From the NCBI GenBank assembly GCA_021108215.1, contig JAIORK010000011.1, positions 1-63,678 on the forward strand: a stretch of 63,678 bases of DNA, read 5' to 3'. The stretch comes from a bacterium. GTDB lineage: Bacteria > Oederibacteriota > JAAXVQ01 > JAUVAV01. The notes below the pieces were generated by a model, which worked only from the letters and a program-made list of their open reading frames with translations, had not been told where the DNA came from and made no database searches. Positions within the stretch are counted from its first letter, which is position 1, and every line of letters begins with the position of its first letter. The position numbers were made by a program, and so were the translations under genes. This document shows, piece after piece, positions 41,179 to 48,022 of the stretch.

Positions 41179-42078
41179 TCACCTCTCTTTAGTTTCTGCC
41201 AACCCCAGCAGGGGCTGAATTATTTCCGTAAATGCCTTACCGGCGACGGTGCCGGCATACTTCCCGACAAAGACCTCACCGGCATCACCACAGTGTGCGA
41301 TGACCGGCTCAAGGGGAAGCCTGCCCATAAACGGCACGCCCATGGCTGTCGCCATTTTTTCTCCGCCGCCTTCCGGGAACAACGCCATCGGATGTCCACA
41401 TTTTTCACAAGCCCACCCGCTCATATTTTCAACCACACCCAGAATCTTGACATTGGCCTGTTTACAAAAATTAACCGACTTCCGCACTGCCGCCAAAGCA
41501 ACCTCCTGGGGCGTGGTCACAATAATCGCACCTGCCAAATCATCAATGGATTGACAAATTGTCAATGGTTCATCCCCAGTACCCGGGGGGGCATCAATAA
41601 TAAGATAATCAAGATCATCCCAGACCACATCACGTAAAAACTGTTGAATAACCCCCATTTTCATGGGACCGCGCCAAATCACCGGATCATCAGGATGCGG
41701 AAGAAAAAATCCTATGGAAACCACCTTGAGCGGTCCTACAGAAACAGGTTCAATATCAACACCATTTGATGTGACCCGTTCTTTACTTAGATTGAGCATA
41801 GTGGGAATACTGGGACCATGAATATCCGCATCCATCAAACCGACACGATACCCGGCACGTGCCAATGCAAAAGCGGTATTCACTGCCACCGTACTTTTCC
41901 CAACCCCGCCTTTCCCGGACAACACCACAATTTTATGCTTAATCCGGCAGAGTCGTTGCTTAATTTTTTGCCGGTCATCAAATATTTTTTGATCTTCACC
42001 CGGCTTCATTTGCTTGGCACTACATGTTTCTGACTCACAGGTTTCACATTCACTCGCTGTTTTTTCATCTGCTTTCAT
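41179..42078 (-). CDS. Mrp/NBP35-type Fe-S carrier ATPase
   Basis: About 299 residues. A Cys-rich N-terminus (CETCESETCSAK) is followed by the deviant Walker A VLSGKGGVGKSTVAVN, DADIHGPSIP and the IDAPPGTGDEPLT block of Mrp proteins. A C-terminal CEKCG supplies the CxxC that binds a bridging Fe-S cluster in the dimer. ATG 42078 has AAGGAG 8 nt upstream and overlaps the ParA-ferredoxin stop by 4 nt. It likely assembles or transfers Fe-S clusters with the NifX-like partner. Confidence 0.92.
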   Translation of the reverse strand: MKADEKTASECETCESETCSAKQMKPGEDQKIFDDRQKIKQRLCRIKHKIVVLSGKGGVGKSTVAVNTAFALARAGYRVGLMDADIHGPSIPTMLNLSKERVTSNGVDIEPVSVGPLKVVSIGFFLPHPDDPVIWRGPMKMGVIQQFLRDVVWDDLDYLIIDAPPGTGDEPLTICQSIDDLAGAIIVTTPQEVALAAVRKSVNFCKQANVKILGVVENMSGWACEKCGHPMALFPEGGGEKMATAMGVPFMGRLPLEPVIAHCGDAGEVFVGKYAGTVAGKAFTEIIQPLLGLAETKER

Positions 42079-42965
42079 TGCATCTGCTCCTTCATGATTT
42101 TCCATACGCCCTGAATGTCTTCTACGATACCCGCACTGGTTATTTCCGGCAGGGTACGTCGTGCCAATTGCGCTTTTACAACCGCTTTATCATACCGTAT
42201 ACGTCCGGCCCAAATACCCTGGTTGGCATTGCAAAAATCCTGTATTTCTTTTGTCATACCGGGATTCAAGTCCCATTTATTGACACAAACATACGTCTGG
42301 GATTGAAAATGGCGCGTAAGTTCAAAAACTCTTTTCAGGTCATGCAATCCGCTTTGCGTAGGTTCGGTCACAATCAGGACCTGCTGCGCTCCGGTAAGCG
42401 ATGCGATCACCGGGCATCCAATCCCAGGCGATCCGTCGATTAAAATCAGGTCCTGCTGCTGCTCTTGCGCAATACGTTTGGCTTCTTTTCTAATCAAACT
42501 TACCAATTTCCCGGAATTTTCTTCCGCGATTCCCAACCTGGCATGCACCAGCGTTCCAAAACGAGTATGAGATATAAACCACTCTCCGTTTTTTACCGGT
42601 TCAAAGCGAATCGCTTTTTCCGGACAATAATAGGCACATACCCCGCATCCCTCACAACTGATCGGGTCCACCCGAAAAGTCCTCTCCGCCTGCGAAGTCC
42701 GGGGTCCGTCAAAGGAGACCGCGTCAAACCGGCAGACTTCCAAACACTTACCGCAAGCTGAACATTTTTCCGGAATGACTTCCGCCCGGCCGCCGCCGCT
42801 GAAATCTTCCTGCTTGATATTTTCAGGATCCAAAACCAGATGCAGATCTGCGGCATCCACATCACAATCCGCCAGCACAACCCTGCCGGCCAATGCAGCA
42901 AACGAAGCTACCAATGATGTCTTACCTGTACCGCCTTTACCGCTAATCACCACAAGTTCTTTCAT
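42075..42965 (-). CDS. ParA-like ATPase with inserted ferredoxin domain (copy 1)
   Basis: About 296 residues. It opens with the P-loop VVISGKGGTGKTSLVASF; an insertion at about 60-115 has two 4Fe-4S motifs (CSACGKCLEVCRFDA and CEGCGVCAYYCPEKA), then the ATPase resumes with LILIDGSPGIGCPVIASLTG. Such ATPases come in tandem pairs next to NifX/DUF134 genes in many anaerobes; the exact role is unknown. ATG 42965 has a GAGG site and begins 4 bp after the SLAC1-like gene. Confidence 0.9.
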   Translation of the reverse strand: MKELVVISGKGGTGKTSLVASFAALAGRVVLADCDVDAADLHLVLDPENIKQEDFSGGGRAEVIPEKCSACGKCLEVCRFDAVSFDGPRTSQAERTFRVDPISCEGCGVCAYYCPEKAIRFEPVKNGEWFISHTRFGTLVHARLGIAEENSGKLVSLIRKEAKRIAQEQQQDLILIDGSPGIGCPVIASLTGAQQVLIVTEPTQSGLHDLKRVFELTRHFQSQTYVCVNKWDLNPGMTKEIQDFCNANQGIWAGRIRYDKAVVKAQLARRTLPEITSAGIVEDIQGVWKIMKEQMQ

Positions 42966-42969
42966 TTTT

Positions 42970-43938
42970 TCATTCCTCTTCAACGCAAATTTCTTTTTTT
43001 ACAATACGCTTGATGGTTTTATACGACAAATAAACTATAAACAAACTTAGCACCGTCAAAAACAGATAAGCACCAACTTTAAAAACGGACAACGATGTTT
43101 CACGGTACATCAACAATGTCGCCAATGTCATTGCGGCGGTGGGAAACGTATACGCCCACCACGAAAGATAAAATTTGATCTTTCTAAACAAATTAAACTG
43201 TAAAACAACCAGAAAAAAAAGAAAAACAGCAATATAATACAAAATCTTCGCAAACGGATCAAGTGAATGTGTTAATTTCATATAAGAAATAAATCCGATC
43301 GCGGGCGGCGCAAAAAGAATAAAAAGCGTGGGCGCCAATTTTTCCGCCAGCGGATGATGAAAAATAATCCTGTTTAAGACGATTACAAATAATGCCAGCC
43401 ACATGATGATGCCAATGCTAAAGAAAAACCAGGATAATTCCGCTGAAAAATGCCGGACCCCTGCAATCGGTATAATCATATTCCCCACAATCGGAATAAA
43501 CCAGGCAGGATTAAGATGATGCAGCTCAATTTTATTATTTTGAATCCAGACCGACATAATAATCAGTGTGAATAAAAACTGCATAACAACACCGACGATC
43601 CATAAATATTTCGAAACTGTCATATTTAAATCCAGATAAATAATGCTGAATATCAATAATATTTTAGCAATGATCGGAAAAAAATTTATTTTCACCGGAT
43701 GCAAAAATTCTTTTTTCACCTCACCCGGATACCGAATAAATTTAGTCAAATAGATTACACTGATTACAGCCGCGAGCGCAATTGTCAAATATCTTACATA
43801 AGCACTAATCGAGACCGACAAATGCAAAACCATTTCCGCCCTTTGCAAAGCCAGCGCAAATCCTACCATACCCAATACGATTGCAAAAAACGATATTGAA
43901 AAATTTTGCAATCTATTTTCCTGATGCGCAGTTTCCAT
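42970..43938 (-). CDS. SLAC1/TehA-type anion channel family protein
   Basis: A 322-residue membrane protein with ten hydrophobic helices (for example ISFFAIVLGMVGFALAL at the start). NPAWFIPIVGNMIIPIAG and the SLSWW-like segment (FYLSWWAYTFPTAAMTLATLLMY) match the TDT/SLAC1 family, which passes small anions or exports dicarboxylates or sulfite. It is co-transcribed with the ParA-Mrp genes, 4 bp apart. What links an anion channel to Fe-S ATPases is unknown; sulfite or sulfide handling would fit. Confidence 0.83.
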   Translation of the reverse strand: METAHQENRLQNFSISFFAIVLGMVGFALALQRAEMVLHLSVSISAYVRYLTIALAAVISVIYLTKFIRYPGEVKKEFLHPVKINFFPIIAKILLIFSIIYLDLNMTVSKYLWIVGVVMQFLFTLIIMSVWIQNNKIELHHLNPAWFIPIVGNMIIPIAGVRHFSAELSWFFFSIGIIMWLALFVIVLNRIIFHHPLAEKLAPTLFILFAPPAIGFISYMKLTHSLDPFAKILYYIAVFLFFLVVLQFNLFRKIKFYLSWWAYTFPTAAMTLATLLMYRETSLSVFKVGAYLFLTVLSLFIVYLSYKTIKRIVKKEICVEEE

Positions 43939-44201: not shown

Positions 44202-44645
44202 TCACCCGACCTGCCCGCCTGCCTTTTGCACGATCTCCTGCAATAGCTGTTGAAATAACTGCCGATAGTCCGGCAGCGCCGCGCAGATCATTTCACCTTT
44301 TGAATAAACTTCAGCAACCCGGCGGTCGTCCGGAATTTCCGACAGGATCGGAATACGATTATCCCTGCAATAATCCCGAACTTTATCATCTCCGCTATCC
44401 GCCCGATTAATAACCACACCAAAAGCCAAACCCAGTGCCCGTACCATTTCAACCGCCAGCTGTAAATCATGCAATCCAAAGGGTGTAGGCTCCGTCACCA
44501 GCACGACATAATCCACTCCACGAATACTCTCAATCACCGGACAGGATGTGCCTGGGGGCGCATCAATAATAATCAACCCTTCTTTCGGTGCCGCCTGTTT
44601 CACTGCCTGAATGACCGGAGGACTCATGGCTTCGCCAACATCCAA
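44202..44645 (-). CDS. ParA-ferredoxin ATPase copy 2, C-terminal part (frameshifted)
   Basis: This frame carries the second half of a ParA-like ATPase: LDVGEAMSPPVIQAVK, IIIDAPPGTSCPVIESIRG and VVLVTEPTPFGLHDLQLAVEM, colinear with copy 1. The first half lies in another frame (44563-45039). The natural reading joins KVGT to QFIHGVLDVGEAM if one base near 44660 is skipped. So the listed start is not natural, and the gene is either broken or misread. Confidence 0.75.
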   Translation of the reverse strand: MDVGEAMSPPVIQAVKQAAPKEGLIIIDAPPGTSCPVIESIRGVDYVVLVTEPTPFGLHDLQLAVEMVRALGLAFGVVINRADSGDDKVRDYCRDNRIPILSEIPDDRRVAEVYSKGEMICAALPDYRQLFQQLLQEIVQKAGGQVG

Positions 44646-45039
44646 TACCCCGTGGATAAATTGTACCCACCTTCCCTACTTCACGCGGGTGCTCGGTAAT
44701 CGCCTCAACCGGGCAAACCCGCTTGCACCCGCCGCAAGCATGACATAAGTCAGGATACGTGAGGACTTTTTCTCCTATTAAAACAATTGCACTGAACTGG
44801 CATATTTCCCCGCACTTGCCGCAAAGTGTGCACTTCGCTTCATCGACAACTGGAATAAGACGCATTACCGGATGTCGTTCCCTGATTTTCGGTTTTAAAA
44901 AAATATGGGCATTGGGTTCTTCCACATCACAATCAAGCAACGCAACCTGTTGCTCTGCAGCTGCGGCAACAACCGCCAGATTAGTTGCCACCGTTGTTTT
45001 TCCAGTCCCGCCTTTTCCACTTGCAATAACAACCCGCAT
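44563..45039 (-). CDS. ParA-ferredoxin ATPase copy 2, N-terminal part (frameshifted)
   Basis: Starts MRVVIASGKGGTGKTTVATN (P-loop) and contains CTLCGKCGEICQFSAI and CHACGGCKRVCPVEAI, two 4Fe-4S motifs, as in copy 1. After REVGKVGT (about residue 126) the frame departs from the family and runs on out of register. The ATG overlaps the DUF5320 stop (TGATG). Composite length 44202-45039 is 838 bp, one base more than a multiple of three. Confidence 0.78.
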   Translation of the reverse strand: MRVVIASGKGGTGKTTVATNLAVVAAAAEQQVALLDCDVEEPNAHIFLKPKIRERHPVMRLIPVVDEAKCTLCGKCGEICQFSAIVLIGEKVLTYPDLCHACGGCKRVCPVEAITEHPREVGKVGTIYPRGIGCWRSHESSGHSGSETGGTERRVDYY

Positions 45040-45380
45040 CAATCTTGGTCTTTTCCATCATCCAGCTTATTGATGCGTTCGTTCAGTTTGGCCAGTTCCG
45101 ACGTGAGCATGGCTGCCTGGTTTTTTAGTGTCTGCGCATTTTCCTGCGGTTCATCCTCCAAAGATGCTGCCGGACCAAACCCTGCGTAGGGTCCAAAACC
45201 GCCGCGCATGCCGAAAAACTGCCTGCCATTCGCGTATTGACCGCCGCCACGCCCGCCGCGCATACCCCAGCCGCCCCCTAACCGGTTATATCCCGGTTGG
45301 TTGGCACCACTACAGAATCCCATTTTTCTGCCTGTCATAGGGCCGAAACCCTGAGGCCCGCTTTGATCTCCTCTTGGCAT
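45039..45380 (-). CDS. DUF5320 Gly/Arg-rich protein
   Basis: A 113-residue protein beginning MPRGDQSGPQGFGPMTGRKMGFCSG, the standard opening of DUF5320 proteins, followed by a Gly-rich middle (GGGWGMRGGRGGGQ) and a C-terminal coiled coil (about 75-108). The family is encoded with NifX-like and ParA-ferredoxin genes in anaerobes; function unknown. Its stop overlaps the ParA start. Confidence 0.87.
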   Translation of the reverse strand: MPRGDQSGPQGFGPMTGRKMGFCSGANQPGYNRLGGGWGMRGGRGGGQYANGRQFFGMRGGFGPYAGFGPAASLEDEPQENAQTLKNQAAMLTSELAKLNERINKLDDGKDQD

Positions 45381-45774: not shown

Positions 45775-46242
45775 TCATTCCTCCTTCTCTTCTTTTTCCG
45801 GCACATAGCCGGCCCACAATCCTTTTCTGTTTTCTGTATGCACCCGCCTGACCGCAGTTTTTCCACATTGTGGACACTGGCCCGGCCGAGGAGTTCCAAA
45901 CGGCACTTCCCATACATGCTCGCAAGGGCGGCAGGCAAACTGGCGTTTCCCGCGGATGGCCACCGGGCCGCCTTCAATATTTAAACAGCCGCCTTCAACA
46001 ATGACTTTGGCAGTTTTTTTATGCGCCGCTTCCAGAATTCTCCCAAACGTTTGCCGCGAAACATTCATGTGTTGGGCCGCTTTTTCCTGGTACAAACCCA
46101 AACAATCCGCCAAACGCAGGGCCTCATATTCATCCAGTGTCAAGACCACCTCAGGCAACGACTGCGCCGGAATCCCGGCCGATTTAAAGCGTTGGAATTG
46201 AGGTTTCCCGGCAACATTCCGGCAAAAACGGGGTCTGGGCAT
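45775..46242 (-). CDS. DUF134 helix-turn-helix regulator with zinc-ribbon tail
   Basis: A 155-residue protein. The DUF134 domain (about 1-95) has VVLTLDEYEALRLADCLGLYQEKAAQHMNVSRQTFGRIL, a sigma-4-like helix-turn-helix. Residues 110-145 carry CRPCEHVW and CPQCGKTA, a zinc ribbon. DUF134 genes lead NifX/ParA clusters in many anaerobes and probably regulate them. The ATG has a GAAGGAAGG site. Directly upstream is the palindromic promoter at 46262-46305, its likely binding site. Confidence 0.88.
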   Translation of the reverse strand: MPRPRFCRNVAGKPQFQRFKSAGIPAQSLPEVVLTLDEYEALRLADCLGLYQEKAAQHMNVSRQTFGRILEAAHKKTAKVIVEGGCLNIEGGPVAIRGKRQFACRPCEHVWEVPFGTPRPGQCPQCGKTAVRRVHTENRKGLWAGYVPEKEEKEE

Positions 46243-46261
46243 AGGCGCCTTCCTTCTTCAA

Positions 46262-46305
46262 AGCATTGACATATTATGAGCATATGCCCATAATATGTCA
46301 ATGCT
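46262..46305. promoter_or_regulatory. 44-bp palindrome forming promoters on both strands
   Basis: Two 22-bp arms match at 21 positions; the left arm begins AGCATTGACATATTATG and the centre is GCATATGC. Because of the symmetry both strands read TTGACA-N17-CATAAT: plus strand -35 at 46266-46271 and -10 at 46289-46294; minus strand -35 at 46296-46301 and -10 at 46273-46278. The minus-strand promoter would start about 24 bp before the DUF134 ATG. The palindrome is also a natural operator. On the plus strand it is followed by eight T, so it could also act as a terminator. Confidence 0.75.
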
Positions 46306-46425
46306 TTTTTTTAATATGTCCATATCCGCAACTCCTAAATTTTAACCTGTTTGATTAGTACAGGAAAAACCAAAAACACAGTTATAGAAAAACATTCCTT
46401 GCTTCTTTACTGACCCTATCCTGCG

Positions 46426-48006
46426 TTAAAACCGCACATGAACACTCAGTTTTCCTGTTTGGCTGGAATAGTTGTTGTCAGAAAAGGTTGAAGTAAATTG
46501 GGTTACTTTAAATTCGCCGGCCAGTTTGATATGCCCGGCCTTGGTCATTGGGTAGGCTGCAGTGAAGTTGTATTCCTGCCGATTCGTATCCGCAGCATTG
46601 GCACGGTTGGACAAACTAATGTTCACCAGTCCGCCCAGATCCAGGCGCTCATACATCCTGGCGTATATTGACAGTTTGATGCCATGGGTAATATTCTTTC
46701 CCGTCAGCAGAATTGTATTATCATAATAAGTTACATTTTCCTGATTGAGTGAATACCCCACACCGGGTGTGAGCTGGTTTAAAACTCCGGTTTTAAAAAC
46801 AAACGGCACTTTTACATCACCCAGTATGTAATCAGTACTGTAATCATTATCATTATTCCGCTCATCCTGGTAATCAGCATGTTCATAGGAAGCGTTTACA
46901 CAAACCATTCCGGCTTTGAAAAAACTATTGGCAGCATAGACCAGGTTGGCATTATCAATCAAAACGTTATCATTGCGATCTGTCAGTTTTGTCATTAAAT
47001 TAATGCCCATTCCCTTGTAAAAGAAATCCAGTCCAACTTTGGGGGTAAAAGTAACCAAGGTGTCGGTCATGTCTCCGTTAACATTATTATTATAACGTTC
47101 GCCATACACATATGCTTTGAGCATCCGGTTAAATAAATATTTATACAGATTCCCCTTAATCACCAACTTATCCGGACTCGCAAATCCGGTTAAGGAGTTG
47201 AACTGACTGCCTACCCGTTCGAACTCGGCAAAGCCCCGAAAGCCCTGGTACTGAAAAAGATTTCGTAAAAACAGGGCAATGTCACTTGTCTCGTCACCCG
47301 TACTTTCATTCTTTTGAAAGACCTGGGAGAGCTCGCCTTCAAAACGAAAATCGCGGGAAAGGGTATACTTAAAATCCGCTCCGTAGATATTATTTTTCAG
47401 AACATTTAAAAGTCCGGTAGAGTCGGTGATACTTCCCTGATCATCGGCGGCATTGACATAATTGATCCCCACCTCCAGAGCGCGGCCAAAGAAACGTTTA
47501 TTTACCCGAATACCACCGGCATAACGGGCAAAAGCGGCATTCTCCCGGGGCACCACTACCCGGCCGATAAACGGAGTCACCTGATAATCCATTAAGCTCA
47601 CCTTGGCCATGGCACCGCGGGCTGTCTGTCCCATGGTATACCGGGAATAGGTGGTAAAAAAATCACCGGCTGTAATTTTGTTAAACCCGCTGCCGGTCTC
47701 GACCAAAAATTTCTGGAGCTCAAAATAATCCTGCCCTTTTAAATTCGGTTCATCGGTATACTTGGCAGTTGTATTGGCCCGGATATAAAAAGAATCGAAA
47801 TTTTTAATAATTGATCCTGTTAAATAATGTTCGGAAAACAATCCCGGTGTTAGAATCGAACTACCTTCATTACCTTGTACGCTGTTGCTAATCACCGCAG
47901 AAGTAAGATCGAGATTGAGTATGTCCTTCTCCCCGATTTTTAACGCCTCCCCCGATGAAACAAACAGTAGCAGTCCAATAACAGCAGGAATAAATGCTTT
48001 GTTCAT
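46426..48006 (-). CDS. Outer-membrane beta-barrel protein
   Basis: About 526 residues: a signal peptide (1-22, MNKAFIPAVIGLLLFVSSGEA) and then alternating hydrophobic strands with aromatic belts through to a C-terminal phenylalanine (KLSVHVRF), the marks of an outer-membrane barrel. No plug or TonB box. I do not recognise a family; it looks like large uncharacterised barrels of diderm anaerobes. ATG 48006 is preferred over an in-frame GTG because GAGGT lies 5 nt upstream. It starts 16 bp after the coiled-coil gene, forming a two-gene operon. Confidence 0.78.
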   Translation of the reverse strand: MNKAFIPAVIGLLLFVSSGEALKIGEKDILNLDLTSAVISNSVQGNEGSSILTPGLFSEHYLTGSIIKNFDSFYIRANTTAKYTDEPNLKGQDYFELQKFLVETGSGFNKITAGDFFTTYSRYTMGQTARGAMAKVSLMDYQVTPFIGRVVVPRENAAFARYAGGIRVNKRFFGRALEVGINYVNAADDQGSITDSTGLLNVLKNNIYGADFKYTLSRDFRFEGELSQVFQKNESTGDETSDIALFLRNLFQYQGFRGFAEFERVGSQFNSLTGFASPDKLVIKGNLYKYLFNRMLKAYVYGERYNNNVNGDMTDTLVTFTPKVGLDFFYKGMGINLMTKLTDRNDNVLIDNANLVYAANSFFKAGMVCVNASYEHADYQDERNNDNDYSTDYILGDVKVPFVFKTGVLNQLTPGVGYSLNQENVTYYDNTILLTGKNITHGIKLSIYARMYERLDLGGLVNISLSNRANAADTNRQEYNFTAAYPMTKAGHIKLAGEFKVTQFTSTFSDNNYSSQTGKLSVHVRF

Positions 48007-48022
48007 GGATGACCTCACCTTT

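Follow-up and report, generated by a model that had tools for sequence, protein, structure and literature searches.

A conserved palindromic core overlapping the predicted promoter of a DUF134 operon is a candidate self-repression operator

Introduction

Autoregulated helix-turn-helix (HTH) repressors combine a palindromic operator over their own promoter, a cognate site before the regulator gene and covariation between recognition helix and operator. The locus described here shares these traits and differs in that the family concerned, DUF134/UPF0251, has no operator described in the literature searched. The DNA-binding domain of DeoR (SorC-type, PDB 7bhy) has the same HTH fold as predicted for DUF134, which lacks the sugar-binding domain of DeoR. 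In MerR-type systems such as SoxR (PMC12825309), the regulator site lies between the −35 and −10 elements, as it does here. However, the spacer of our locus is 17 bp and not overlong, the protein belongs to another family and the operator position varies among relatives.

Symmetrical promoters have also been described. The E. coli bidirectional promoters of Warman, Grainger and colleagues have −10 elements that are shared or interlocking, and their two starts are separated by 10, 18 or 23 bp (PMC12825309). Our locus resembles them in its symmetry, which would let polymerase load both ways, with mutual exclusion (PMC12825309). In contrast to that type, its −10 elements are separate (46273-46278 and 46289-46294), its predicted starts lie ~35 bp apart and there is no divergent gene; neither a shared or interlocking −10 nor any of the three start distances was found.

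Results

We analysed a 63,678-nucleotide stretch of contig JAIORK010000011.1 (the window), in which a first-pass annotation had noted a 44-bp near-perfect palindrome that reads as a promoter on both strands. The palindrome is real and slightly longer than reported, spanning 48 bp (46260-46307) with 24-nt arms, a spacer of 0 and 23 of 24 pairs matched, the sole mismatched pair being A46279/C46288. It is far beyond chance: scored at +1 per match and −2 per mismatch, it reaches 21, while 12 dinucleotide-shuffled copies of the window reach no more than 9-12 and the runner-up in the window scores 15. It is present as a single copy in the 3.56 Mb genome. As the annotation had stated, TTGACA-N17-CATAAT is present in both directions, on the plus strand (46266-46294) and on the minus strand (46301-46273), with 11/12 consensus bases. 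Since the first promoter lies wholly within the palindrome, the second is automatic and both constitute one observation. A single 11/12 promoter is unremarkable, because one more exists in the window (4182, plus strand) and shuffles average 1.3; the palindrome is therefore the real oddity.

The predicted gene-side promoter has its −35 TTGACA at 46296-46301 and its −10 CATAAT at 46273-46278, on the minus strand, with a predicted start at ~46266. The −35 occurs at the same place and with the same 17-bp spacing in three relatives (L004, L005 and L007). Just upstream of it is an A8 tract (46305-46312, minus strand; T8 on the plus strand) that may act as an UP element. The mirror elements on the plus strand are a −35 TTGACA at 46266-46271 and a −10 CATAAT at 46289-46294, with a predicted start at ~46301. 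The palindrome edge is 17 bp upstream of the DUF134 ATG on the minus strand, and a Shine-Dalgarno-like AAGGAAGG (46248-46255, minus strand) precedes the start codon. Beside the palindrome, a 12-bp direct repeat (TAATATGTC[A/C]AT) occurs at 46291-46302 and 46312-46323, at a 21-bp, two-turn spacing.

The downstream gene (45775-46242, minus strand) encodes a DUF134 (PF02001) regulator with a C-terminal zinc-ribbon-like part. It matches PF02001 at 71.7 bits (gathering score 27) and is the only DUF134 copy in the genome. On the same strand, its operon continues with genes for a NifX-like protein (PF02579; 45403-45768), a DUF5320 protein (45039-45380) and a MinD-type ATPase with a ferredoxin insert (44202-45042), whose reading frame is broken near 44650. 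This split across two frames reflects either a truly broken gene or an error of sequencing or assembly; an intact paralogue, a second MinD-type ATPase with ferredoxin insert, is located at 42075-42983 (minus strand). Also on the minus strand are genes for a TehA/SLAC1-type anion channel protein (42970-43938) and an Mrp/NBP35-type iron-sulphur carrier ATPase (MrpORP-like; 41179-42105). The gene upstream of DUF134 (46426-48018), likewise on the minus strand, has no Pfam match and no detectable counterpart near DUF134 in the other loci.

Broad sampling of 384 genomes gave DUF134 matches above the Pfam cut-off in 70 of them, and a NifX-like sequence is found in 48/106 DUF134 loci, either fused to DUF134 or encoded downstream in the same orientation. 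In L025, L031, L042, L043, L051, L097 and further Firmicutes loci, DUF134, a C-terminal NifX-like domain and a His-rich tail form one chain, which suggests that sensor and DNA reader are united in a single protein.

The annotation had proposed checking whether the palindrome precedes DUF134 genes elsewhere, and for most of those collected its 22-bp core does. DUF134 loci were collected from the 384 genomes around the window genome and by a scan of genome contigs, which together gave 105 distinct DUF134 genes whose upstream DNA could be analysed. With the window left out of training, a palindromic motif was found upstream of 84 of these at p ≤ 0.01 and of 79 at p ≤ 0.001, relative to dinucleotide shuffles. 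The consensus is TTAT(G/T/C)RRCATATGYY(C/A/G)ATAA, with CATATG at the centre. The window site, ATTATGGGCATATGCTCATAAT on the gene strand (46273-46294), is likewise centred on CATATG; it scores 31.0, third of the 105. When the motif was cross-trained between halves of the data, 46/74 and 17/31 upstream regions exceeded a 1% threshold that was set on real, operator-masked DNA of the same loci, in which the top control matches were further operator copies. The orthologous position carries an operator in other genera, and the core is conserved across phyla. About 20 DUF134 genes are without a site, some of them because another gene comes first in the unit or because the family is divergent.

The core is also close to exclusive to DUF134 genes. 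A strict pattern matched 20 places in the 384 whole genomes, 20/20 directly upstream of a DUF134 gene, and the reversed pattern had no matches in the same genomes. The DUF134 loci, 526 kb in all, contain 81 strong sites near DUF134 starts and 8 elsewhere, with 0 in shuffled loci. Among the sites elsewhere, those in L012 and L111 precede a gene that lies immediately upstream of DUF134 and seems to share its unit, and that in L099 in fact fronts a DUF134 gene absent from the gene list. No other core-like site with ≤2 mismatches was found in the window's genome.

Several loci carry further operator-like sequences. At L120:2084, such a site follows the DUF134 gene and lies upstream of a start resembling that of a twin-arginine-exported molybdenum oxidoreductase, a possible second DUF134 target. 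In L093 (~1382) and L075 (~1399), the operator is ~100 bp from DUF134 in an oppositely pointing promoter, which in L093 faces a DUF5320/NifX-type gene; divergent control is possible there. Sequences within the zinc-ribbon part of the DUF134 coding region (L022:5324, L068:1818 and L023:258) may be coding coincidences or an internal site before DUF5320. Two copies before one DUF134 gene (L027, L034, L038 and L052) suggest double-operator repression.

To see how the protein might read this site, we turned to its predicted structure. The model of the window DUF134 (pLDDT 87.6) contains helices at residues 36-47, 52-59 and 63-83, of which the latter two form a predicted HTH of high confidence; Arg68 lies in helix 63-83, the putative recognition helix. 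The predicted HTH superposes on the operator-bound DeoR DNA-binding domain (7bhy) with 1.3 Å over 42 residues, although sequence similarity to DeoR is insignificant (E 0.93). A sequence search for a solved DUF134 structure returned none. The top Foldseek hits by E-value were MCM proteins at TM 0.2-0.3, matches that probably arise via the zinc ribbon.

Residue 68 and operator base −6 are the highest-ranking residue-position pair across 81 genes, with the window left out. Counted by half-site, Arg68 occurs with G in 75/88, Glu68 with C in 28/30 and Asn, Ala, Lys, Ile, Leu or Asp with T in 38/38. The window protein has Arg68 and its operator a G at −6 in both halves. Arginine-guanine and glutamate-cytosine are expected recognition-helix contacts, and the pattern fits them. 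On the tree there are 4 Arg68 changes and 1 supported independent pair, which agrees with the rule; with so few independent changes, a tree-aware sign test is powerless.

Finally, we determined where the operator lies relative to predicted promoters. Of the 66 genes with a recognisable promoter, 61 have its centre within −36 to +10 of the predicted start, in clusters at −29 (over the −35), −18 (in the spacer) and −1 to +5 (over the start). The window belongs to the spacer class with 12 other genes; members of this class keep TTGACA immediately beyond the operator, on the gene side. The 22-mer itself contains CATAAT, so its overlap with the −10 is partly built in. The varied positions inside the polymerase footprint fit steric repression. 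The site is conserved before orthologues, overlaps the predicted promoter of the regulator gene and changes in step with residue 68 of the protein. The annotation's proposal that DUF134 acts as a dimer competing with RNA polymerase for its own promoter is strengthened by all three of these observations.

Discussion

We propose, with a probability of roughly 0.83, that the 22-bp core is the operator of a DUF134 dimer and that binding would repress the protein's own DUF134-NifX-DUF5320-MinD/Mrp operon. One recognition helix would enter each half-site, with Arg68 reading the −6 guanine in each. In the sigma70-type promoter of the operon, the operator would occupy the −10 together with the 17-bp spacer, and because the site fills both, bound DUF134 would shut RNA polymerase out. 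The operon would then be under negative autoregulation until a signal releases DUF134. Our guess, prompted by the operon content and the Firmicutes DUF134-NifX-like fusions, is that this signal is probably linked to iron-sulphur or molybdenum-iron cofactors. The opposite promoter would be a by-product, silenced by the same operator.

The outer arms call for an account of their own. The window's 24-bp arms compare with 17 for the next longest among the operators, and on the sequences compared, long outer arms, in which the gene-side −35 and its mirror copy lie, are peculiar to the window genome. Outside the core, each of the 13 pairs matches, which has a probability of ~2e-8 by composition (per-pair rate) and makes the arms no accident of sequence, yet they are missing in relatives. 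Long arms can arise in one step when template switching corrects an imperfect palindrome, a documented type of mutation (PMC7202029, PMC8794818). The chances are about even that such a quasipalindrome mutation copied the gene-side −35 arm across, leaving a sequence without selected function; this would explain the arms only. The relatives compared, from which an ancestral state might be read, belong to other genera, and the extra arms could instead strengthen DUF134 binding.

For the core, the alternative to repression that fares best is that DUF134 activates the promoter by remodelling it from within the spacer in MerR fashion. We consider this unlikely. An operator centred at −18, as in the window and its 12 companions, would in principle permit activation, as with MerR proteins, but the spacers are an ideal 17 bp and not the 19-20 bp to which those of MerR promoters are stretched, and an operator that shifts between −29, −18 and −1 to +5 suits steric blocking and not a fixed activating contact.

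We give slightly less credence still to a two-way switch, in which both promoters would be used, opposed polymerases would exclude each other and DUF134 would set the balance. Both promoters do have 11/12 consensus bases at the ideal 17-bp spacing, and polymerase competition is established at E. coli bidirectional promoters (PMC12825309). However, among 84 operators, matching strong promoters on both strands occur in the window only. In L004, L005 and L007, which are of the same family, the gene-side −35 is kept (TTGACT or TTGACA), whereas the mirror −35 retains only 2-3 of 6 matches, and it is absent from essentially all other operators. The annotation had found no obvious gene for the plus-strand promoter, and we agree: beyond 46301 there are only trivial reading frames, and an Rfam search of this strand gave no family above its gathering score, the hits being far below and of a miRNA-type hairpin kind that marks artefacts. 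A known RNA was rejected on the same grounds. The A8 tract lies upstream on the gene side alone, and a plus-strand transcript would begin into T8. The ~35-bp distance between predicted starts and the separate −10 elements do not correspond to the shared-−10 classes of 10, 18 or 23 bp, and an operator that is symmetrical would shut off the two directions alike. With the mirror −35 missing in its same-family relatives and no gene downstream, the symmetrical two-way promoter does not hold up as a functional feature.

That the palindrome acts as an RNA hairpin, either an intrinsic terminator or a leader structure, is very improbable. It does fold at −28 to −34 kcal/mol (z of about −8 to −9), and T8 follows the stem on the plus strand; but no plus-strand gene needs a terminator, the minus strand has only three T after the stem, and relatives keep the 22-bp core and its CATATG centre, not the long arms. 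The hairpin would moreover lie outside the operon mRNA if transcription starts near 46266 as predicted. As an intrinsic terminator the palindrome was rejected, since it was not among the sites listed by the terminator scan and the T8 is on the gene-less strand only. A mobile or dispersed repeat of the REP or MITE kind, which a long, nearly perfect intergenic palindrome might recall, has a negligible probability: several copies are required and 1 is present in 3.56 Mb, with no core-like site within 2 mismatches at the search sensitivity used, and the position is orthologous in other genera.

Self-repression by DUF134 would be a mechanism of a known kind; the family, the operator and the specificity rule appear to be undescribed. 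No description of a DUF134 operator was found in the literature searched, which consisted of papers readable without a subscription; the annotation, too, had named no described example of such an autoregulatory switch for DUF134. Mentions of DUF134, UPF0251 and PF02001 looked incidental as judged by title and abstract, and the UPF0251 passage was a mutation list.

More tentatively, and at somewhat less than even odds, DUF134 proteins may be widespread, undescribed self-repressing regulators of metal cofactors, with an ancestral CATATG operator and a residue-68 code (Arg-G, Glu-C, others-T), whose NifX-like partner, fused in many Firmicutes, would sense an iron-sulphur or molybdenum-iron cluster.

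In conclusion, these results assign a predicted role to a domain of unknown function, together with a precise DNA target and a residue-to-base rule that can be tested. They also link DUF134 to operons that encode NifX-like and MinD/Mrp iron-sulphur proteins and whose regulation is little known. The locus also urges caution, in that symmetrical promoters should not be taken for two-way switches where a palindromic operator explains them.
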